Source: Melioribacter roseus
GTDB lineage: Bacteria; Bacteroidota; Ignavibacteria; Ignavibacteriales; Melioribacteraceae
DNA length: 64,000 nt
Direction of reading: 5' to 3'
Assembly: GCA_020722065.1 (NCBI GenBank)
Contig: DYLK01000013.1
Coordinates: forward strand, 1 to 64,000
The notes below the pieces were generated by a model. That model made no database searches. It saw only the letters and a program-made list of their open reading frames with translations, and was not told the origin of the DNA. The position numbers and the translations under genes were made by a program. Below, in pieces: positions 42,379-57,887 of this stretch (position 1 is the stretch's first letter; every line of letters begins with the position of its first letter).

Positions 42379-44247
42379 ATGCATGTATATAAAAGAATAT
42401 TAAAATTCATACTTCCATTTTGGAAGCATCTTGTAGCCACAATTATTTTTACTTTTCTTTTTTCGGCAATGTCTGGAATTACAGTTTATTTGACTATTCC
42501 ATTATTAAACACGTTGTTTTTGCAAAATGAAGTAGAATCTCAAAATACAATTTCTCTTCCTACTAATGATTCGGATTCATTTATTCCGTCATGGTTTATT
42601 GAATTACAACATTCAATTTCAAACTCGTTTGAGTCATACGTTTACAGCGGGACAACTCACGAAGTTCTTCTTAAAATATCAATTTTAATAATTATTGCAT
42701 TTTTCTTAAAAAGTATATTTGGGTATTTGCAAGCATTTTATATTGCATACATTCAACAGGGAATGATTAAAAATATTCGAGACAAATGCTATATTCATAT
42801 TCATCAGTTACCAATGAATTTTTTTAAGAATGAGCGAACTGGGGATTTGATTTCGAGAATAACTAATGATGTTAACTTAATTCAATCGAGCACTACACAA
42901 GTTTTCATAAGTTTTGTTCGAGAACCGATAACGATTTTAGTTTATGTTTTAATTGCATTATCCATCAGTGTTAAATTATTTCTTTTTTCAATAGTAATTC
43001 TACCAATTTCGGCATTTATAATTGGAATAATCAGCAGTTTTCTCAGAAAACAATCAATAATTCTCCAAAAAAAGATGGGAAATATTACTACAATTTTGCA
43101 AGAAACAATAGTTGGTGTAAAAATAGTAAAAGCATTTGGAATGGAGAATTATGAAATAGAGAAATTTAGAAATGAGACGAATAATTTTTTTAGAACTGTA
43201 ATTAAAAAAAGTAGAATCCAAAATATTTCTTCCCCAACAACCGAATTAGCTGCAGTAATTGTTGGAGTTGTAATAATTTATTATGGCGGGTTGCTTGTGC
43301 TTGTTGATCATTCTTTGCAAGCGAGTAATTTTATGGGATTTTTATTTACAATTTTTCAGATAATTCCACCGATGAAGCAAATGGCAAATGTAAATAACCA
43401 TATTCAAGAATCAATTGCAGCTGGAACAAGAGTTTTTGAGATTCTTGATATTGAACCATCAATCAAAAATATTGAATCTCCAAAATCGGTTGATGATTTT
43501 CATGAAAAATTGGAATTTAAGAACGTTAGTTTTAAGTATGATAATTCTGATAGAGACATTCTCGATAATCTTTCTTTAACCGCAAGAAAAGGCGAAATTA
43601 TAGCTTTTGTAGGAAGTTCGGGAGCTGGAAAAACTACAATTGTCGATTTAATTCCAAGATTTCACGATCCAATCAGCGGAGAAATACTTTTAGATGGAAT
43701 TAATATTAAGGAGATTAAAATTGAAGATTTGCGTAAATTAATGGGAATTGTTACACAGGAAACATTTCTTTTCAATGAAACAGTTTCAAAAAATATTGCA
43801 TACGGTCTTTCAAATATTCCACAAGAAAGAATTGAGCAAGCCGCAAAAATAGCAAATGCTCATGATTTTATATTAGAATTGCCAAATGGTTACGATACAA
43901 TCATTGGTGAACGAGGTGCAAAACTTTCTGGTGGACAAAGGCAGCGTATTTCAATTGCGAGAGCGTTGTTGAAAAATCCACCAATAATGATATTTGACGA
44001 AGCAACATCAGCACTTGATAACGAATCTGAAGTTTTAGTTCAAGAAGCTATTGAGCATTTAATGAAAGAAAGGACAACTTTTATAATTGCACATAGATTG
44101 AGTACAATTAGAAAATCTGATAGAATTTATGTTTTGGACAAAGGTAAGATTGTTCAAGTTGGCAAGCACGAAGAGTTATTGAATGAAAAAGATGGAATTT
44201 ACAATAAACTTTATCAACTTCAGTTTAGTAATCAGGAAAGTGCATAA
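42379..44247 (+). CDS. MsbA-like lipid/glycolipid ABC exporter
   Basis: Half-transporter of 622 residues that would flip a lipid A or glycolipid across the inner membrane. Six membrane helices lie within about 15-340, including a long periplasmic insertion near 45-95 rich in Ser and Asn. The ATPase domain has Walker A GSSGAGKTT (412-420), signature LSGGQRQRISIARALL near 516 and Walker B IMIFDEATSALD near 536. It follows nine glycosyltransferases, so its substrate is likely the glycolipid they build. MsbA itself or a related multidrug exporter cannot be told apart by motif. Confidence 0.88.
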   Translation: MHVYKRILKFILPFWKHLVATIIFTFLFSAMSGITVYLTIPLLNTLFLQNEVESQNTISLPTNDSDSFIPSWFIELQHSISNSFESYVYSGTTHEVLLKISILIIIAFFLKSIFGYLQAFYIAYIQQGMIKNIRDKCYIHIHQLPMNFFKNERTGDLISRITNDVNLIQSSTTQVFISFVREPITILVYVLIALSISVKLFLFSIVILPISAFIIGIISSFLRKQSIILQKKMGNITTILQETIVGVKIVKAFGMENYEIEKFRNETNNFFRTVIKKSRIQNISSPTTELAAVIVGVVIIYYGGLLVLVDHSLQASNFMGFLFTIFQIIPPMKQMANVNNHIQESIAAGTRVFEILDIEPSIKNIESPKSVDDFHEKLEFKNVSFKYDNSDRDILDNLSLTARKGEIIAFVGSSGAGKTTIVDLIPRFHDPISGEILLDGINIKEIKIEDLRKLMGIVTQETFLFNETVSKNIAYGLSNIPQERIEQAAKIANAHDFILELPNGYDTIIGERGAKLSGGQRQRISIARALLKNPPIMIFDEATSALDNESEVLVQEAIEHLMKERTTFIIAHRLSTIRKSDRIYVLDKGKIVQVGKHEELLNEKDGIYNKLYQLQFSNQESA

Positions 44248-44250
44248 TTT

Positions 44251-44664
44251 TTAATCTAACTGAATTTCTTCAGTTGCATAAGAAGTTGAGGTCTCAAAAA
44301 TTGTAACTCGAAGTGTTTTAATGTGAGTTGGTAAATTAGGTTTTATTTTATCAATAAAATACAAACAAATATTTTCAGCAGTAGTTTCAAAATCTACAAC
44401 TTTATGTTTTGTTTTTAATTCTTCAATTTTATTAAGAAGGATTTCATCATTTTTATTAATCATAAATGAATGGTCAAGTTCTTCAACAAATGGTTCGACA
44501 TGTTTTTTCAAATCATAATAGTCCACTACCATTCCATTAGTTAAAGTATCGCTTGATATCTCGACTTGCATTCGATAGGAATGACCGTGCAAATTTTTAC
44601 ATTTCCCCAAGTGACAAAGCAATCTGTGACCCATTTCCCATCTAAATTCTTTTGCTATTTTCAT
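44251..44664 (-). CDS. queD: 6-carboxy-tetrahydropterin synthase (QueD)
   Basis: 137 residues; converts dihydroneopterin triphosphate to 6-carboxy-tetrahydropterin on the way to queuosine. Zinc ligands are His13, His26 and His28, and the catalytic Cys22 lies in CKNLHGH (22-28). I start at the ATG at 44664, preceded by AAAGGTG and overlapping the queE stop as TGATG; a TTG nine codons upstream is unlikely. It is convergent with the exporter gene at 3 bases. queF, queC and tgt are not in the window. Confidence 0.93.
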   Translation of the reverse strand: MKIAKEFRWEMGHRLLCHLGKCKNLHGHSYRMQVEISSDTLTNGMVVDYYDLKKHVEPFVEELDHSFMINKNDEILLNKIEELKTKHKVVDFETTAENICLYFIDKIKPNLPTHIKTLRVTIFETSTSYATEEIQLD

Positions 44665-45299
44665 CAAACACCTTTTGTTTCTGGATGCCAAATATATTTA
44701 TGTATTTGTAATTGAAATCGTACTTTAATTTTTTCTTCTAAAATCCATTCCGCAAGTGTTTTATTATCCAATTTACCAAAAACAGTTGAAAAAATAATGT
44801 TTTTGTAGTCCAAATTAATTTTGGGAAGCAGACTTTTGCTCCATTCAAAATCTGTTCTATCCCCAATTACGAACTTTACTTCATCAAATTCTTTTAGATA
44901 ATTTAGGTTTTCCAACAAATTTTTCTTTTCCATTCTACTTGAGGGAGTTTTTAAGTCCATAATAATTTTCACTCTTTTGTCAACATCTTTAATTGGTAAA
45001 CTTCCACTTGTTTCTAAAAGTACTTCATAATTTTTGTCGCAGAGAATTTTCATCAAATCTAAAGAATTCTTCTGAAAAAGTGGTTCTCCGCCTGTAATTT
45101 CTACTAACTTGCAATTATATTTTTCAATTTCAGTGATGATTTCATCTATTGAATAATCTTTACCGTCGTAAAATGCATATTCTGAATCACAATAAGTACA
45201 ACGCAGATTACAGAAAGTAAGTCTAATAAAGACAGTAGGTAAACCTGTATAAGAGCTTTCGCCTTGAATAGAATAAAATATTTCGTTTATTTTTAACAT
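44664..45299 (-). CDS. queE: 7-carboxy-7-deazaguanine synthase (QueE)
   Basis: Radical SAM enzyme of 211 residues that makes the deazaguanine ring of queuosine precursors. The cluster motif is C30-x3-C34-x2-C37 in FCNLRCTYCDSEYAF, with EITGGEPLFQ near 67 as the SAM-binding GGE. EIFYSIQGESSYTGLPTVF at the N terminus is typical. It forms a two-gene unit with queD. An upstream palindrome (45310-45320) lies in the divergent gap with the kinase gene. I saw no preQ1 riboswitch. Confidence 0.95.
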   Translation of the reverse strand: MLKINEIFYSIQGESSYTGLPTVFIRLTFCNLRCTYCDSEYAFYDGKDYSIDEIITEIEKYNCKLVEITGGEPLFQKNSLDLMKILCDKNYEVLLETSGSLPIKDVDKRVKIIMDLKTPSSRMEKKNLLENLNYLKEFDEVKFVIGDRTDFEWSKSLLPKINLDYKNIIFSTVFGKLDNKTLAEWILEEKIKVRFQLQIHKYIWHPETKGV

Positions 45300-46594: not shown

Positions 46595-49500
46595 TTATTT
46601 TATTTTCGCCAATTTTCCAGTTGATGTAATTGTTTCGTCGGCTTTTTTCATTATTATTTTATAAAAATATGTCCCGTTTGCAATTTCATCTCCATCTTCA
46701 TCTTTTCCATCCCAAAATAATTTATTAAAATCATAATCTAATTCACTTGAATTAGCTTTTATTGATTTTATCAATCTTCCTGCCACTGTAAAAATTTTAA
46801 TTTCCATTTCATCTGGAATTTGAGGTAGTTTGAAAGTGAAGTAAGTTTCATTTGCAAAAGGATTTGGGTAATTATAAACATCCATTAATTGCAACTGATT
46901 AGATATTTTAAAAGATTTAGTAATTCCATTTTCCAATGCAATATTTCCGTTTGCATCTTTTCCATTAACAAATAATGTGTAATCTCCATTTTGCAAAGTT
47001 GGTGTAAAAGTTACAACATATTTTGGATTCGATTGATTTATTTCTATTTCAATATCTGGATTGTTCGCATAAATTGATTGTCCATTTAGTTTAATGATTA
47101 CACTTGAAGTATCAGTTATGGGCAGAATTGATTCATCAGAAATTGAGATAATTATTTCTGGAGTTGGTGAAATAAATTCGCCATTCAAAATATCCTTTTG
47201 GTCAATTAGCAAATTAATGCTTGGTTTTGTAGTGTCAGCTTTAACAAAAAATGGAATTGAGTAATAATTGTTATCTTTAAAATGTTCAACAACTTTGTTG
47301 GAATCATCAATTGAGATTTCAAAAGAATATTCCCCACTAAGATTTGCAGTGGCTTGCGAAACAGAGAAATTCCTTTTGCTTTCGGCTGAAATAGAATCCA
47401 CAAGTTGTGTGAAAATCACAAATGAATTATTTTCAGAATCTCTCAATTTTACCGAAACCCAAAAACTATCAGCGGAATTTTCTCCAACATTATAAACAGA
47501 GAAGTTGAGCATTTCATTTTCACCTTGTTCAACGGAATCTTTCTCGACACTGACAACTTGATAATTAATCGCAAGTTCGGCAATCCCAACGTAATCTACA
47601 CCGAGAGAATAAAGTTCTGGAGAAATTTTATCATCACTTGCTGAAAATTGAGCAAGCAATTTAATTTGGGGATAAATTTTAGCATCAATAAAACTTAAAT
47701 CAGCAGTGGAATCTTGAACAGTAAATTGCTGCAAAGTATCAATTTCCCCATTTTCACGAATTCCAAGTGGAGTATAAGTAATTTGAGAATTTGAGATTAA
47801 ATTTTGCTGAACATTTAAGGATTTCCATTTAGTAGCTTTCCCAATTTGCGAAGTAAGAAGTGAACCAGAATCTGAAAGATATGAGATTGTGGTATCAATT
47901 TGCACAAACCCGTCGCCTTGATGAGAAAATGCTTCTGGCATTGAGCCAATTGCCGCTCCTTTTTTTCCTATGAATGCCCAAGATGCACGAAAATCTACTG
48001 AATCAATATATTTGCTTCCATACTGTTTAATTTTATTTAATAAATTAGCATCTGTAATTGAACCATGGTCTGAGATAGAAAATAATAGAATTCTATCGTT
48101 TGATAATGTATCTAAAAAAGTCGTATAATTTGTTAGATTACTTCCGCCTGATAAAACATCAAATAATTTATATTCTATGAAATTATATGGAATTTCTGAA
48201 GAAAATACTGAAACATGATGCCCTCGCAAAGTTGCTTCAGGAATTGTATTAACACTATTTCTCTCATTCACAGCAGTATTTCCATCATTAAATCCAGCAG
48301 AAACGACATGGAAATTAATATAAGAGGAATCGATTTTTAATGAACCTAAATTTGTTAAATTATTGTTTGAAGAGTTGAGAAAACTTATACTATCTTTTAG
48401 AAAATACTTACTATCTGAAATTAAAAAAGAAGATGAAATACTATAATTTTCGGAATTTTTTATTTTACTTCTATACCAATATCTATTTCCATTTGATATC
48501 GAAATAGGAATTTCTGTAAAAATTGTATCAAGAATATATTCAGAAATTATTTGAGAAGAAAAATCTTGATTTTCAGAAAGTTCTAATATGATTGTTGAAT
48601 TTGGCGGTTCAACTGTTGGGTTTAAAATTTTAACTCTATTTTTGATTCCATTCTCAACATAGTAATCTATTAAATTTCTAGTAGAAGATGATGCAATTAC
48701 AAAATTATAATTGGCTGTATTATCATCTTCACTAATTTCATTATATGAATTAGAATTATCCAAAGTAACTATAATTGTATGGTTCCCTGGTTGATCTTTT
48801 GTATAAATAGGAATCACTAATGAATCGGAATATTTTGGAATTGGTCTTTTAAGAATTAACTCTTCTTTATTGCTTTTGGGATATGAAGATTTTGTGTTAA
48901 CATAGTTATGGATTATACTAATTGAGACTGAATCATTCGATACTTTCCCTAAATTATTATAAGATATCTTTATTTTTGAACTATCATCCAAGTCAGTAAT
49001 ATTATCATTTAATAATTCTATGTTTTCACTTAACAACTTAAAATTTGGTTTTTCAGGAATTGGTAAAGAAATAATTGGGTCCCCAAAATATTCATTTGTT
49101 AAAGCAAATAATGAATAGCTCCCTGATGAACCATAATTCTGTAGCATTTCAAGTTTAGCTTGTTTATGAGCTTCGGAAATTTCAGTAAACCCTTCTTGTA
49201 ATATTTTTTTATAAAATATTTTAGGAACGGTTAATGAAGTTGAAGTAAATCCAAGAGATGAATTTCCAATGTATCCGATAGCTTGTCCTTCTGCGTCAAT
49301 AGTAAATAATTCAGCAAAAGCAACAATATCTGGTTCTGCAAATTTTCCTGTTGAACAACCAAAATCGGTTATTAATGGAAATCTGTTTGCAGAATTTCCC
49401 AGCTGTGTTGGAGAAATAATAGAATTATCCCATGTTTGAGTACCACTATGTCCCAAATATGAAATAAAAAGACTCCCTTTATCAATTTCACTCTCAACAA

Positions 49501-51874
49501 AATCAAGTGAATATGGGCCAAAATTTGTTTTAGGCTCAATTGTTTTATAAAAGTGTGTATAGTTTCCACCAATTGGAATTGTGTCAACATAATTTTCAAT
49601 AATAAAATCATTTACTTCTTTCATTGAATTTAATTGATTTTCATCATTTTCATTTCCGCCAGAAAAGAATAGATATTTCTTATTCCATTCATCATAATTT
49701 CCACTGAGATATTGTTGATGTTTCTCTAAATACCAGTCAATTTCATCATTTGATTTTACAGGTAAACGGCCAATATTCATTTGTGGGATATAAGCTCCAG
49801 TTGTGTCCCAAGTTACGAACCAATTATCACTTACTGGAGCACCAAAAGAGGGCACATAATTTTTGACATATTCAAATCCTTGATAGATATGTTTATTGTT
49901 ATGATAATCATAACTAGCATCTCCAAGGAGTAAAACATATTGTGGTAAAGGTTCTTTCCAATTATTATGAGTAATTTTCAAAAAATCTTGAATTGCTTCG
50001 GGGTTAAAAAAACCATAATCAAATTCATCATAAATATCATTAACATTAATAACTTTAGTTGTTACATTATAGTTTGATGCAATAAATTCTGCATATTCAT
50101 ATGCTTTTGTGATAAAATCCGAGTGAGTAATAATTAAATAGTCAGCTTGATTTTCATTGTTTCTTAAATTAGTAAATTGTTTAAGATAGTAGAAATAAGG
50201 TGACATTATTTTCAAGGAATCTAGAAGAACATATTTACTATAAGAAGAAACTGAGTCTGAAAACAACAATTCATTATTTTCTTGATTTAGATTAAATCTC
50301 TTAAATTCATCACCATATTTCCAAATTGTAAAATTGTTCGAATTTATATCAGTTATTTTAATGTTTCTTAAATCTTTTGTATCTAAAAAAGGGAAAGAAA
50401 AAAGAAGAGAATCGCTAAAAGGTTTTAAATAGCGTGGATATTCGATTTCGTACCAATCATAGAAAAATGTATTAAGTGATGCATTTGTTACATAAGAATT
50501 AACTTTTAAATTATTAGTTGCATTATTCGTAAGTAAATTTGAATTCAATTCCGCCGATAGAACAACTTGATCATATTTACTAAAATAAGTAGAATCATAC
50601 GCTTCGGGGTATGAATTTAAACTTAGTGAAATATGGTAAGCATTATCGTTAATATCAGACACCCAACCTTGAGCTTTAAAATACATTTGAAATGGTTTGT
50701 TTGGATAAGCAGAATTTACTGTGAAATTAAAACTTCTTGTCCCTGGTGAAATTCCACCCCAAATCCATGTTTTATTTTCAATCCAAAATGGAGATTCTCG
50801 CCTTGTTAAATCTTGGCAAGTAAAGTCAAACCAAGGATTGCTTTCATAATGGTCAATTTGTGAATAATAATATAATGTATCTGAAGTTGAAGTTATGTTC
50901 ATCGTTAAATTTTCAACTCTTATTCCATTTTCGCCATTCCAAGTTAGCCAATAGATAGTAGTGTCAGTATATCTTCCGAGATATTCATTATAAGGTGTAT
51001 TAAATTCACTTTCTTCCCTATGTTTTCCCCCCATATTTTTTATCCCAACAAATTCAATAAAATCGGTTTCGTCAAAAGAGAGATCATCTTCTCCTTCTAT
51101 AAAAATTGGAATTTGGGTTCCATTCATAAATATTTTAAGTGTTTTCGGATTAATTAAACTTAGATTTACATTTTCAGCAATTAAATCATTATAAGTTATA
51201 CGATAAATACCATCTTGATTAGTTCCTAATTTTAGATATTCAGAATTGTAATCAATCCAATCATTCATATTTTTTATTGGAAATTTTGTTGATTTATTTT
51301 GAATCTTAAAAGGTGAGTTTAAAATTATTTTTGCTTTCTTAGCTCTTTCTTTTTGAGCAAATTCAATATTTTTTGAAAATTTAAGTGAAATATTAAACTT
51401 ATCTACAAATTCAATAATTTCATTTTTATTATCATATTTTACAGGATTTATTTCTAAATGCATACAATAGTAATCGTTAATCCATAAATAACCTTTTATT
51501 TCTAAAAAGGGTTTAATTACTTTTTTATAACTTGCATTTTTAGAATTTATTGTGCTATCACTGGCAATATAGAATTCTTTATTTAACTCTGGTGTTTTAT
51601 TTATTGTATTTAACTCAATTATAGAGTATTGTAAAGTGGGATTTTCTATTATTGGCAATGATATAAAAATATCATAATGAGGAAGTATTGGACTCCCAGG
51701 TTCCGAGGGATTAAAAAATTCACTCCAATCTGTATCTGAATGAAAATTGTTATTCGAACCAGAAGTAAAATCAATCGAATAGTTTTCTGCAGAAATATTT
51801 TCACTTATTGTATATATTTGTGCGAATTGAATATTGAATAAATAAATTGATAAAAGGAAAAAAATTTTTTTCAT
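46595..51874 (-). CDS. giant C25/PorU-like cysteine peptidase with ILEI-like domain
   Basis: 1759 residues. Signal peptide about 1-18 (NIQFAQ). A long beta-rich N-terminal half (about 60-570) leads to a gingipain-type C25 core (about 580-940) with catalytic His809 in SYLGHSGTQTW and Cys840 in DFGCSTGKFAE. After CARDB/Ig-like modules (about 940-1085), residues about 1175-1325 resemble the ILEI/FAM3 fold (NKIKQYGSKYIDSVDFRASW then AFIGKKG). More Ig-like modules follow, then a FlgD-like end (about 1668-1759) with NYPNPFANET, DGKDEDGDEIANGTYFY. PorU sortases are C25 members, so it may process T9SS cargo; a secreted protease is the alternative. GAGG precedes the ATG. Confidence 0.85.
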   Translation of the reverse strand: MKKIFFLLSIYLFNIQFAQIYTISENISAENYSIDFTSGSNNNFHSDTDWSEFFNPSEPGSPILPHYDIFISLPIIENPTLQYSIIELNTINKTPELNKEFYIASDSTINSKNASYKKVIKPFLEIKGYLWINDYYCMHLEINPVKYDNKNEIIEFVDKFNISLKFSKNIEFAQKERAKKAKIILNSPFKIQNKSTKFPIKNMNDWIDYNSEYLKLGTNQDGIYRITYNDLIAENVNLSLINPKTLKIFMNGTQIPIFIEGEDDLSFDETDFIEFVGIKNMGGKHREESEFNTPYNEYLGRYTDTTIYWLTWNGENGIRVENLTMNITSTSDTLYYYSQIDHYESNPWFDFTCQDLTRRESPFWIENKTWIWGGISPGTRSFNFTVNSAYPNKPFQMYFKAQGWVSDINDNAYHISLSLNSYPEAYDSTYFSKYDQVVLSAELNSNLLTNNATNNLKVNSYVTNASLNTFFYDWYEIEYPRYLKPFSDSLLFSFPFLDTKDLRNIKITDINSNNFTIWKYGDEFKRFNLNQENNELLFSDSVSSYSKYVLLDSLKIMSPYFYYLKQFTNLRNNENQADYLIITHSDFITKAYEYAEFIASNYNVTTKVINVNDIYDEFDYGFFNPEAIQDFLKITHNNWKEPLPQYVLLLGDASYDYHNNKHIYQGFEYVKNYVPSFGAPVSDNWFVTWDTTGAYIPQMNIGRLPVKSNDEIDWYLEKHQQYLSGNYDEWNKKYLFFSGGNENDENQLNSMKEVNDFIIENYVDTIPIGGNYTHFYKTIEPKTNFGPYSLDFVESEIDKGSLFISYLGHSGTQTWDNSIISPTQLGNSANRFPLITDFGCSTGKFAEPDIVAFAELFTIDAEGQAIGYIGNSSLGFTSTSLTVPKIFYKKILQEGFTEISEAHKQAKLEMLQNYGSSGSYSLFALTNEYFGDPIISLPIPEKPNFKLLSENIELLNDNITDLDDSSKIKISYNNLGKVSNDSVSISIIHNYVNTKSSYPKSNKEELILKRPIPKYSDSLVIPIYTKDQPGNHTIIVTLDNSNSYNEISEDDNTANYNFVIASSSTRNLIDYYVENGIKNRVKILNPTVEPPNSTIILELSENQDFSSQIISEYILDTIFTEIPISISNGNRYWYRSKIKNSENYSISSSFLISDSKYFLKDSISFLNSSNNNLTNLGSLKIDSSYINFHVVSAGFNDGNTAVNERNSVNTIPEATLRGHHVSVFSSEIPYNFIEYKLFDVLSGGSNLTNYTTFLDTLSNDRILLFSISDHGSITDANLLNKIKQYGSKYIDSVDFRASWAFIGKKGAAIGSMPEAFSHQGDGFVQIDTTISYLSDSGSLLTSQIGKATKWKSLNVQQNLISNSQITYTPLGIRENGEIDTLQQFTVQDSTADLSFIDAKIYPQIKLLAQFSASDDKISPELYSLGVDYVGIAELAINYQVVSVEKDSVEQGENEMLNFSVYNVGENSADSFWVSVKLRDSENNSFVIFTQLVDSISAESKRNFSVSQATANLSGEYSFEISIDDSNKVVEHFKDNNYYSIPFFVKADTTKPSINLLIDQKDILNGEFISPTPEIIISISDESILPITDTSSVIIKLNGQSIYANNPDIEIEINQSNPKYVVTFTPTLQNGDYTLFVNGKDANGNIALENGITKSFKISNQLQLMDVYNYPNPFANETYFTFKLPQIPDEMEIKIFTVAGRLIKSIKANSSELDYDFNKLFWDGKDEDGDEIANGTYFYKIIMKKADETITSTGKLAKIK

Positions 51875-51886
51875 AAGACCTCAACC

Positions 51887-52630
51887 ATGGAAAATATATT
51901 AGCAAAAATAAATATTTTAAATGAATCACACTATAAACAAACAATAAATAATGTTTTGCTGAATAATCAGAAAAGAACATTTTGCTATTTAAATACTCAA
52001 GTATTTTATGAAATCGAAAGAAACAAGGAATTTCAGAATGCTTTCAATAATTTTGATTTCGTAATACCAGATGGAACAAGTGTAGTTTGGTCAAAAAATC
52101 ATCTTTTGAAAACAAATATTCAAAAAGTTGTTTTTACTTATTCATATTTTAATTTTATGAGGGATTTCTTTATTCAGAACAAGATAAAACTATTCTTTTT
52201 AGGTGCCAAACACGAAACTATTCTTAAAGCAGTAAAATTAGAAAAAGAAAAATATCCCGAATTGTTAATAAGTGGTTTTCAAGACGGATATTTTTTCGAC
52301 CAAGAAACTAGTGATGAAATCATTGAACTGATAAATTCTTCCAAAGCTCAAGTATTAATAGTAGGAATGGGATGTCCAAAAGCAGAATTGTGGATTCATC
52401 AGAATTTTTCAAAAATTAATGTAAATGCTATTTTTAGCGTTGGTGGATTTTTCGATTTCCTTGCAAAGGATAAAATTCAAGCTCCAAAGTGGATGTATAA
52501 TTCTGGATTTGAATGGTTATTTAGACTAATTCAAGAACCAAGAAGATTGTGGAAAAGGTATTTGGTGTCTAATATTTATTGGCTTTACAGACTAATTAAA
52601 AGTATTTCAGTTGATAAATTTTTTCACTAA
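51887..52630 (+). CDS. WecG/TagA/CpsF-family glycosyltransferase (GT26)
   Basis: 247 residues. Family motifs: VIPDGTSVVWSKN near 60-72, LFFLGAKHETI near 104, GFQDGYFFD near 127, VGMGCPKAELWIHQN near 151 and FSVGGFFDFLAKDKIQAP near 172, ending in WLFRLIQEPRRLWKRYL. Family members add a second sugar (ManNAc(A)) to undecaprenyl-linked GlcNAc. The ATG is only 12 bases from the divergent C25 start, with no clear ribosome binding site. Its 3' end overlaps the convergent GT9 gene by 35 bases. Confidence 0.9.
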   Translation: MENILAKINILNESHYKQTINNVLLNNQKRTFCYLNTQVFYEIERNKEFQNAFNNFDFVIPDGTSVVWSKNHLLKTNIQKVVFTYSYFNFMRDFFIQNKIKLFFLGAKHETILKAVKLEKEKYPELLISGFQDGYFFDQETSDEIIELINSSKAQVLIVGMGCPKAELWIHQNFSKINVNAIFSVGGFFDFLAKDKIQAPKWMYNSGFEWLFRLIQEPRRLWKRYLVSNIYWLYRLIKSISVDKFFH

Positions 52631-53528
52631 TTGATTCAATTAATTCTGCACTTGTTATACTCTGTAATTCGAAACTTTCAAATTGAATTCCTTTTTTATT
52701 ATTGATTAACGCACTTTCAACAGTTGTCGCAGAAAATAATCCTATAAATTTTGTATTATAAGCATCTGCTAAATGAATTGGGAAGGAATCAACAGAAATA
52801 AAAAGTTTGCAGTTTACTAACTTGACTAATTGTTCGATTTCGGGAAATGGAATTAAAGAGACATCTTCATTTTCAAAAACATTTATCTTATTATCCCCAA
52901 TAATATAAATAGGATAAAAAAAGTTCTTTTTTAAATAACTGATAATAGACAAGACTTGAACTTTTGACAAACTCTTAAATTCCCGCATTGAAAAAGGATG
53001 TAAAACTATGAAGTCACCTTCTTTATAAGATGGAATTTCTGGGAAAGAATATTTCAATAAACTATGATTTGAATAAAATAGTGCATCAATAATATTCTTG
53101 ATTCTAAATATAAAATTTGAATCCTTTGACCAATTAATTATCTTAATTCTATTTTTACTACTAATAAATCCTCTCTGATTTTTATCGAACCATTCATTCC
53201 GTTTAAATAAGTTAATAAATCCTCCTTTATTAACTGATTTTGATAACATTAGAAAAATTGAATTTACAATACCTGGGAAGAATGAAAATGAGTAATCATA
53301 TTTTTGCTTTCGTATAATTTGTAAAGTCCTAAAAACAGAAAATATTGTCCTTTTTTCTAAAATAACTTTATTTATCTGAGAAGAGTTTAGAAGAAAAATT
53401 GAATTGGAGGTGGTTAAAACATCAACCGAAAAATCTATCTCCAATAATTTTAGGTAACTTATAGCGGATAATGAAAGATAAGTATCTCCAATTGCATTTG
53501 TCGATATAATCAATACCTTTAATTGCAT
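52596..53528 (-). CDS. glycosyltransferase family 9
   Basis: 310 residues from the ATG at 53528; a TTG five codons earlier is possible. Family 9 landmarks: ISTNAIGDTYLSLSAISYLK at the N terminus, DFIVLHPFSMREFKSLS near 155-180, and ISVDSFPIHLADAYNTKFIG near 250 with the DSxxxHxA pattern. It overlaps the upstream GT9 gene by 10 bases and the convergent WecG-like gene by 35. Likely transfers a sugar (heptose in typical members) to a lipid-linked core. It is the last gene of the four-gene unit starting at 56714. Confidence 0.82.
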   Translation of the reverse strand: MQLKVLIISTNAIGDTYLSLSAISYLKLLEIDFSVDVLTTSNSIFLLNSSQINKVILEKRTIFSVFRTLQIIRKQKYDYSFSFFPGIVNSIFLMLSKSVNKGGFINLFKRNEWFDKNQRGFISSKNRIKIINWSKDSNFIFRIKNIIDALFYSNHSLLKYSFPEIPSYKEGDFIVLHPFSMREFKSLSKVQVLSIISYLKKNFFYPIYIIGDNKINVFENEDVSLIPFPEIEQLVKLVNCKLFISVDSFPIHLADAYNTKFIGLFSATTVESALINNKKGIQFESFELQSITSAELIESISEKIYQLKYF

Positions 53529-54607
53529 TCTAAAATTTGACAAATTGCGGAATAAACTTTTTCAACAGTGACTTTTGTAATACATTCCCTCTCTTTCAGA
53601 ATGCACTGCCACTCGCAACCAAAACAATCAAGTTGATGAAATAAATATTTTGTTTTAGAATCATTCGGTTTTGGTAAGTATCTACCATAATTTCCGCCAC
53701 CAATAATTGCAATAACTTGAATGTTAGTTTTTAAGGCAATGTGAGTTATACCAGAATCTAACCCAATAAGTAATTTTGAATTTGTAATAATGTATTCTAA
53801 TTCAAAAAGAGTAAACCTATTACTTGAATATTCAACGTTAAATTTCCCCAAAATCATCTTGGCTAAAGGCTCTTGTTCTTCTGAAGAAACAATTAGGATT
53901 TTATATTTGGTATAAAATCTTTCAACAATTTTCACAAAATTTTCTAAAGCCCAATCTCTATCGATATCAGAAGAAAAGGGTGAAATAATAATATCATATT
54001 TAAAATTTTCCTTTTTAGAATTATCAAGTGTAACCGAATTTCTCCCAATTGGATGATTTCTCTTAAAATAGTTAATTACATTTTCTATTCTTTCATACTC
54101 GTTAAAAGTATCTTTATTGAGAACATAATCATACTTATTGTGAATTGTATTTTTGAGTTCGGGATAAACGGTTTTCCAATTATTATAATTACAATAAGTT
54201 GTTTTTGCCCCAATACATAACGCCAAAGAATCATTCCAAGCAGTTCTTGCAGATGTCAAATTATATACTTCATTAATCTGTAATTTTCTTAAAAAAAGAG
54301 TGAATTTTATTCTGTAAATAAGATTATATCGAAATTTGTTTATTTTCAAAGGAATAATATTGGTAAAATAGCTTTTATCAGAAAATAGAGATATTAAACT
54401 TTCATTAATCAAAAAATAGAATTTATTATCTCCTTCATTCCCAATTTGCTCCATTAATTGAGAAAAAATAACTAAATCACCAATTCCCCCTGTTTGAATA
54501 AACAAGTAATTATTGTTATTCGAAGACTTACTTTTTTTCGAGAATAAGATTAAAAAAAGAAAATTCAGATAATTAAATATTTTAATTAAGTATTTGTTTT
54601 TTTTCAT
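53519..54607 (-). CDS. glycosyltransferase family 9 (heptosyltransferase-like)
   Basis: 362 residues. A hydrophobic N terminus (about 8-23) may bind the membrane. FIQTGGIGDLVIFSQLM near 36 and LLIGLDSGITHIALKTNIQV near 278 are family signatures. The C terminus has a cysteine cluster (CFGCEWQC, then ECITKV) typical of a GT9 subgroup. It overlaps the upstream GT2 gene by 4 bases. With the following GT9 it could extend one core region. Sugar specificity cannot be read. Confidence 0.85.
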   Translation of the reverse strand: MKKNKYLIKIFNYLNFLFLILFSKKSKSSNNNNYLFIQTGGIGDLVIFSQLMEQIGNEGDNKFYFLINESLISLFSDKSYFTNIIPLKINKFRYNLIYRIKFTLFLRKLQINEVYNLTSARTAWNDSLALCIGAKTTYCNYNNWKTVYPELKNTIHNKYDYVLNKDTFNEYERIENVINYFKRNHPIGRNSVTLDNSKKENFKYDIIISPFSSDIDRDWALENFVKIVERFYTKYKILIVSSEEQEPLAKMILGKFNVEYSSNRFTLFELEYIITNSKLLIGLDSGITHIALKTNIQVIAIIGGGNYGRYLPKPNDSKTKYLFHQLDCFGCEWQCILKERECITKVTVEKVYSAICQILECN

Positions 54608-56792: not shown

Positions 56793-57887
56793 TTATTCAG
56801 TAATTTTTTTGGCTGTTTGTAAAACTCTTCCAACAACTTGATCCATATTAAAATATCGATATTCAGCTAATCTTCCAAGAAAAAGAACATTTTCCAACTT
56901 TTCAGATTCCTTTTTATACTTTTTATAGATTAAATCATTTTCATCACTCGGAATTGGATAAAATTCAGCCCCGACAAAAGTGGGATATTCAAAACTAATT
57001 GAAGTTGAGTTACTTACTTGTCCAGTTAAGTGCTTATGTTCAACTATTCTTGTAAAACTTTCCTTATCATCTGTAAAATTAATTTGAGCCACTTCTTGAA
57101 ATCTCTCCCTTTCTAAATTTTTCCACTCAAATTTTATTGAGCGATATGGCAATTTACCAAATTTGTGATCAAAGAAATAGTCGATTGGGCCTGTGTAAAT
57201 CATTTTTTCAAATTCAATTTGGTTAATTATTGATTTATAATCCGTGTTTAGCATTATTTGAATATTTGGATGATTTAACATTTTTTCAAACATTTTTGTG
57301 TAACCATCTTTTGGCATAAATTGATATTTATCGGTAAAATATCTGTCATCTGTGTTTGTGCGGATTGGAATTCGTCCACAAACCGAAGGCGAAAGTTGAC
57401 TTGGGTCTAATTCCCACTGTTTTTGTGTGTAATATTTAAAGAATTTTTCATATAAATCACTTCCAACTTGATTTACAATTATATCTTCCGAATTTAAAAT
57501 TGGATTTCTCTTTTCTCGCACACTTTCGTAAAAATTGCTCACTTCTTCGTCGGTAGTAAATGATTTGTTGTACAATTTGTTAACTGTTGTTCTGTTTATT
57601 GGAATTGGATAAAGTTCACCATCCAAGTTTGCAAGTACTCGATGTTCATATTTTCGCCATTCTGTAAATTGAGAAAGATATTCAAAAACTTCTTTGCTGT
57701 TTGTGTGAAAAATATGCGGACCGTATTTATGGACAAGAATTCCGAATTCATCAAATTCATCATAAGCATTTCCAGCAATGTGATTGCGTTTTTCAACAAT
57801 CAAAACTTTTTTGCCTTTTTGGGCTAATCTTTCTGCCGAAACCGCACCAGCAAATCCAGCCCCAACTATTAAATAATCGTATTTCAT
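56793..57887 (-). CDS. glf: UDP-galactopyranose mutase
   Basis: Flavoenzyme of 364 residues that converts UDP-galactopyranose to UDP-galactofuranose, the donor for galactofuranose in surface glycans. FAD-binding motif VGAGFAGAVSAERLA at 8-22, then VEKRNHIAGNAYDE near 31 and YGPHIFHTN near 55. The conserved block YTQKQWELDPSQLSPSV near 152-168, RIPIRTNTDDRYFTDKYQ near 172, and the C-terminal GRLAEYRYFNMDQV near 341 are all characteristic. It ends 78 bases before the ATPase gene, which has its own promoter. Confidence 0.97.
   Translation of the reverse strand: MKYDYLIVGAGFAGAVSAERLAQKGKKVLIVEKRNHIAGNAYDEFDEFGILVHKYGPHIFHTNSKEVFEYLSQFTEWRKYEHRVLANLDGELYPIPINRTTVNKLYNKSFTTDEEVSNFYESVREKRNPILNSEDIIVNQVGSDLYEKFFKYYTQKQWELDPSQLSPSVCGRIPIRTNTDDRYFTDKYQFMPKDGYTKMFEKMLNHPNIQIMLNTDYKSIINQIEFEKMIYTGPIDYFFDHKFGKLPYRSIKFEWKNLERERFQEVAQINFTDDKESFTRIVEHKHLTGQVSNSTSISFEYPTFVGAEFYPIPSDENDLIYKKYKKESEKLENVLFLGRLAEYRYFNMDQVVGRVLQTAKKITE

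Follow-up and report, generated by a model that had tools for sequence, protein, structure and literature searches.

A peptidase gene in the window (the whole stretch of 64,000 nt of Melioribacter roseus DNA analysed here) encodes a C25 peptidase that, by its sequence, is PorU-like and belongs with the PorU2 group (termed PorU2-like below). An ILEI/FAM3-like domain lies in its chain, and profile matches show that most PorU2-like proteins, from across Bacteroidota, have this domain in the same position. The parts are known, because public model libraries already contain both the domain and the name PorU2. The combination, an ILEI domain that is regular in PorU2-like proteins, absent from PorU and paired with WecG, appears to be undescribed in the literature searched: with most subscription papers and all preprints lying outside the scope of this search, we found no paper on PorU2 or on ILEI in an enzyme of the type IX secretion system (T9SS), and in the same scope no experiment on any PorU2. 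These observations bear on the question of what a second or third PorU-like sortase does for the bacteria that have one. The PorU2-like branch can now be told apart by a domain and, in one lineage, by a partner gene, and thus the glycan used by each sortase becomes a testable question. Moreover, the FAM3 fold has a debated role in animals, and here it is found in a bacterial context in which the handling of sugars is the obvious hypothesis, in agreement with reports that FAM3C and POMGnT1 bind sugar.

Layout of the host protein

Pfam-A matches along the 1759-aa product come in the order Peptidase_C25, ILEI, CARDB and FlgD_ig, and the features of the gene are:

46595..51874, minus strand: putative PorU2-like C25 peptidase with ILEI domain, 1759 aa
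51821..51874, minus strand: likely Sec signal peptide, residues 1-18 MKKIFFLLSIYLFNIQFA, then Gln (judged by eye)
49067..50140, minus strand: Peptidase C25 domain, residues 579-936 (PF01364, E 5e-62)
49448..49450, minus strand: catalytic-type His809 (GHSGT), identical in 68/68 relatives
49355..49357, minus strand: catalytic-type Cys840 (FGCST), identical in 68/68 relatives
47840..48382, minus strand: whole FAM3-like fold, approximately residues 1165-1345, with approximate boundaries (AlphaFold model and Foldseek alignments, ~160 columns)
47954..48226, minus strand: ILEI core, residues 1217-1307 (PF15711)
47258..47557, minus strand: CARDB domain, residues 1440-1539 (PF07705, E 5e-10)
46640..46870, minus strand: T9SS type A C-terminal domain (CTD), FlgD_ig-like, residues 1669-1745 (TIGR04183, PF13860)

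An earlier note on this DNA had described a gingipain-type core with His809/Cys840, which is upheld by the PF01364 match and by the invariance of both residues, and also a FlgD-like tail. A FlgD_ig match is indeed present (residues 1676-1740, E 6e-7), and the tail is corrected here to a T9SS type A CTD. This domain scored 23.3 bits with TIGR04183 against a cut-off of 23, and 30.5 bits in the genome search. The T9SS set of the genome includes SprA, PorU (892 bits), PorZ (354 bits) and 49 CTD matches; because SprA, PorZ and these CTD matches are found, the window protein is most likely a surface enzyme exported by T9SS.

Profile and fold of the ILEI domain

The ILEI/FAM3-like domain had been placed at 47900-48350, which corresponds to residues ~1175-1325 of the 1759-aa protein, and the two checks named for it, a profile search and a structure prediction compared with FAM3C, were run. 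Excised residues 1150-1350 matched PF15711 (ILEI) with an E of 4.7e-13 over the full length of the model. The whole protein matched the same profile at 45.7 bits (gathering cut-off 27, E 9.8e-12, profile positions 1-90 of 90), and a genome-wide profile search found a single ILEI in the whole genome (E 5.2e-13). With the window protein alone as the phmmer query, FAM3B, POMGnT1 and FAM3C were retrieved from the PDB (E 5e-4 to 1.4e-3). With a profile built on 68 homologues, the E-values were 5e-22 for FAM3C, 2e-20 for FAM3B, 2e-16 for POMGnT1 and 3e-13 for the TMEM2 ectodomain. The AlphaFold2 model of residues 1060-1440, which was built from the 68 homologues, had a mean pLDDT of 94.4. The top PDB match of this model was FAM3B (E 1.7e-8, TM 0.71 on target), the TM was 0.71-0.75 with FAM3C and 0.78-0.80 with the POMGnT1 stem, and FAM3A was also among the best solved structure matches.

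Profile and predicted fold thus bear out an ILEI/FAM3-like domain in a C25 peptidase, and neither of the outcomes that the earlier note had set against its claim, the lack of a significant ILEI profile hit or a predicted fold unlike FAM3, occurred. A chance or mis-frame match is ruled out by the full-length Pfam match, the confident fold and the conservation. The GFNDGN motif, which had been given as the start of the pattern, is part of the fold, but the Pfam core begins later, at 1217 (RGHHV).

Placement among PorU-like C25 peptidases

With the NCBI PorU2 model NF052324, the window protein aligned over positions 21-879 of 879 and scored 411 bits, which is below the cut-off of 450, and hence we call it PorU2-like without formal membership. 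This cut-off was reached by 0/58 genomes of the genus, family and order. With the PorU model NF033707 the score was 320 bits, under the cut-off of 420, and the C-terminal region of the window protein resembles that of PorU (NF033707 positions 873-1092). In a tree built on the N-terminal and catalytic part, which holds only three PorU sequences and in which some deep or wider nodes have a support of 0.67-0.93, the window family and the distant PorU2 proteins formed one clade, with PorU and a third paralogue outside it, and above-cut-off PorU2 members shared this clade with the window family. An ordinary PorU is rejected, since the score is below the cut-off and a separate true PorU of 1296 aa exists in the same genome. 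A gingipain is also ruled out, because the window protein gives a match to neither a propeptide nor C25_C.

The same genome encodes, at L059:8262-12299, a gingipain-like C25 peptidase with a propeptide, carboxypeptidase-regulatory-like domains and a CTD. The third PorU-like paralogue (~1880-1930 aa) occurs in many Ignavibacteria genomes (L212-L220, e.g. G034:C5:33500-41600) and has its own clade in the tree.

Distribution of the ILEI domain

ILEI was found in 42/58 genomes of the genus, family and order, with one per genome and one exception, mostly in frames of ~1750-1815 aa, and the contigs with matches belonged to Ignavibacteria, to Melioribacteraceae and relatives. A phylum-wide draw gave ILEI in 101/395 genomes, nearly all in long frames of ~1500-2000 aa. 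An HMM made from the window's family only found the same domain in the same place in 15/20 distant PorU2 proteins (E < 1e-3). When an iterated model was run on 473 frames of 40 control and distant loci, matches below 0.05 were obtained only in PorU2-like frames, and ILEI was not detected in PorU or other genes of this set. Because the iterated model had seen copies of the distant proteins, the 15/20 from the family-only HMM is the independent figure. In the third paralogue the iterated model likewise did not detect ILEI, and what this paralogue has in common is limited to the sandwich segment that follows ILEI. Three shortened proteins of the PorU2 clade (L211, L224 and L225, 1091-1348 aa) were also without ILEI.

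The fold had been regarded in the earlier note as one of scattered surface proteins in bacteria; instead, it is a standing feature of the PorU2-like family across Bacteroidota. Scattered lateral insertion is ruled out by the same position in most of these proteins. At G281:C29:3874-6018, a 2399-aa frame carries two ILEI copies, and tandem pairs of PorU2-like genes were seen at G106:C10, G288:C18 and G212:C1.

Gene neighbourhood and pairing with WecG

The gene is flanked by glycosyltransferase genes, an MsbA-like exporter gene and a UDP-galactopyranose mutase gene:

51887..52630, plus strand: WecG/TagA/CpsF-family glycosyltransferase (PF03808, E 5e-51), divergent from the peptidase gene with 12 bp between start codons
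34877..42291, plus strand: glycosyltransferase cluster (GT9, several GT4, GT2)
42379..44247, plus strand: ABC exporter, MsbA-like layout (PF00664, PF00005)
53519..54607, minus strand: GT9 heptosyltransferase-like protein (PF01075)
56793..57887, minus strand: UDP-galactopyranose mutase (PF03275, E 2e-75)

WecG-family enzymes transfer ManNAc or ManNAcA. Across 77 non-redundant loci, WecG was the immediate upstream neighbour in 50 and lay somewhere in the locus in 65, and the WecG and PorU2-like frames often overlap or abut on the same strand (-4 to +9 bp). WecG was <= 5 kb from the ILEI gene in 38/40 genomes with both (Ignavibacteria and relatives). Of 58 genomes, 38 had both, 4 ILEI only, 3 WecG only and 13 neither, with agreement in 51/58, and this co-occurrence gave a Fisher p of 3e-7, a statistic that ignores the kinship of the genomes. 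Moreover, a recognised glycosyltransferase was beside 31/33 PorU2-like loci versus 0/20 PorU loci of the same genome group, where the probe set was taken from PorU2 neighbourhoods and other transferases at PorU loci could be missed. The pairing of WecG and PorU2 recurs in other families of the class (G240, G106, G288, G369, G167 and G332). In distant classes, WecG beside PorU2 was not found, and a glycosyltransferase neighbour of any recognised kind was present at 4/20 distant PorU2 loci. WecG linkage as a phylum-wide rule is rejected outside the window's class.

Other neighbours were also noticed. At 44251-45299 of the window, two overlapping minus-strand genes resemble queD and queE by sequence, and a probable QueE-like gene is near PorU2-like loci in 26/77. 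In several distant Bacteroidota, a protein of ~370-385 aa is encoded directly upstream of PorU2 (L254:6338-7489, L260:5932-7068 and L267:6443-7549), and this protein gave no Pfam match.

Sugar-contact residues

Residues R129, D179 and R207 of POMGnT1 make contact with GlcNAc, which is also a ligand of FAM3C and FAM3A (PMC9802357). The alignment with POMGnT1 reproduces the triad spacings of 50 and 78, and gives these equivalents:

48224..48226, minus strand: Arg1217, equivalent of the GlcNAc-contacting POMGnT1 Arg129 (alignment; PMC9802357)
48068..48070, minus strand: Asp1269, equivalent of POMGnT1 Asp179 (alignment)
47987..47989, minus strand: Arg1296, equivalent of POMGnT1 Arg207 (alignment)

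On paper, the window copy of ILEI would be competent for sugar binding. Among the 68 relatives, R1217 is kept in 22, D1269 in 49 and R1296 in 55, and the window's lineage retains the fold residues G1286, S1287, W1299 and K1305. The full R1217/D1269/R1296 triad is present in 19/68, which rejects it as a family-wide signature, and it has been lost from most of the distant PorU2; thus the data do not point to one sugar site conserved in the family. Presence of the triad showed no association with presence of WecG (p 0.61). The PorU2-like family as a whole is probably without a fixed sugar site, and any ligand would differ between lineages.

Proposed function and alternative readings

Of the possible roles of the ILEI domain, the one with most support from these comparisons is that of a T9SS sortase module that binds glycan, which the earlier note had proposed along with cargo binding: GlcNAc is a ligand of its nearest structural neighbours, the window protein has the triad, and genes for glycan biosynthesis adjoin its gene. 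A precedent comes from P. gingivalis: A-LPS is bound by PorZ and handed to PorU, and PorU attaches cargo to it (PMC8545088). The linking sugar is 2-N-seryl,3-N-acetylglucuronamide in P. gingivalis and 2-N-glycyl,3-N-acetylmannuronic acid in T. forsythia, that is, N-acylated amino-uronic sugars, which are of the manno type in T. forsythia (PMC7468200). We tentatively favour, with a confidence somewhat short of even, a model in which the window protein acts as a second, PorU2-like C25 transpeptidase on the cell surface and its ILEI domain holds an acceptor glycan next to His809/Cys840. The protein would be exported by T9SS and would sit on the cell surface beside ordinary PorU. Its ILEI/FAM3 domain would be a lectin-like module that binds a surface glycan with an N-acetylated amino sugar; the neighbouring WecG-type transferase, together with other glycosyltransferases, would contribute to the synthesis of this glycan. 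ILEI would then place the glycan next to the His809/Cys840 site, and the glycan would accept the cleaved C-terminus of cargo proteins. ILEI would play in cis the part that PorZ plays in trans for PorU and that the stem domain plays for POMGnT1. Four elements of this model are inferred: that ILEI binds sugar, which sugar it binds, that the enzyme acts in transpeptidation, and that ILEI hands the glycan over to the active site.

Several observations were counted against this second-sortase reading: PorU and PorZ are already in the genome, distant PorU2 loci are mostly without glycosyltransferase neighbours, the triad is limited in the family and does not track with WecG, and the score is below the NF052324 cut-off. 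A wider form of the reading is more doubtful, namely that Bacteroidota may have a second, glycan-selecting sortase line with its own FAM3-type lectin domain, for which a dedicated WecG-type transferase in Ignavibacteria and relatives would make the matching linking sugar, giving a separate attachment route to a different surface glycan than that of PorU/PorZ.

The same fold and triad evidence also fits an ordinary surface protease, with a C25 domain that would carry out hydrolysis alone and an ILEI that would serve in targeting or anchoring: by binding glycan, it would fasten the enzyme to polysaccharide of its own cell or to glycosylated substrates. Linkage to glycan genes fits such anchoring equally, and C25 enzymes include plain proteases, as the gingipain-like C25 with a propeptide in this genome illustrates. 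However, the catalytic half is clearly nearer to PorU and PorU2 than to gingipains and the C-terminal region is PorU-like, and we consider this reading unlikely. Poor keeping of the triad in the family, next to the kept fold residues of the window's lineage, and distant PorU2 that are mostly without glycan neighbours would agree with a protein-protein or structural module, which docks a PorV/PorZ-like partner or holds the domain chain, with sugar binding not its job and the triad a remnant of the fold. This is rather unlikely, because D1269 and R1296 are each kept in most relatives and the linkage to one glycosyltransferase family is strong in the window's lineage. It is improbable that the WecG link is positional only, with the gene lying in a surface-polysaccharide region and no functional tie: distant PorU2 are located elsewhere and the genomes are related, so that the counts are dependent, but selection on the pair is favoured by the occurrence of both orientations, by overlapping frames and by the two genes being present or absent together across three families.

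Comparison with known systems

NF052324 PorU2, a putative T9SS sortase, shares with the window protein the N-terminal and catalytic region, the clade and, in most members, the place of ILEI; the glycosyltransferase pairing was not seen in its distant members, unlike the window's lineage. PorU (NF033707; P. gingivalis PorU) shares the C25 His/Cys domain and the C-terminal CTD, but has ~1300 aa, is without ILEI, and has no recognised glycosyltransferase neighbours at loci of the window's lineage. PorZ is also a CTD protein and resembles ILEI in the proposed glycan presentation to a sortase, but it is a separate beta-propeller protein, also present in the window's genome, unlike the in-chain ILEI. 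FAM3B/FAM3C (ILEI), the POMGnT1 stem and the GG domain have in common with the window domain the full-length profile match, a TM of 0.7-0.8 and the R/D/R triad. The window ILEI differs from FAM3 in that it sits inside a bacterial peptidase and has no cysteine in the segment, and hence no FAM3-type disulphides. The phage T4-type gp35 hinge connector and other phage ILEI proteins have the same fold in a tail-fibre context, with no peptidase.
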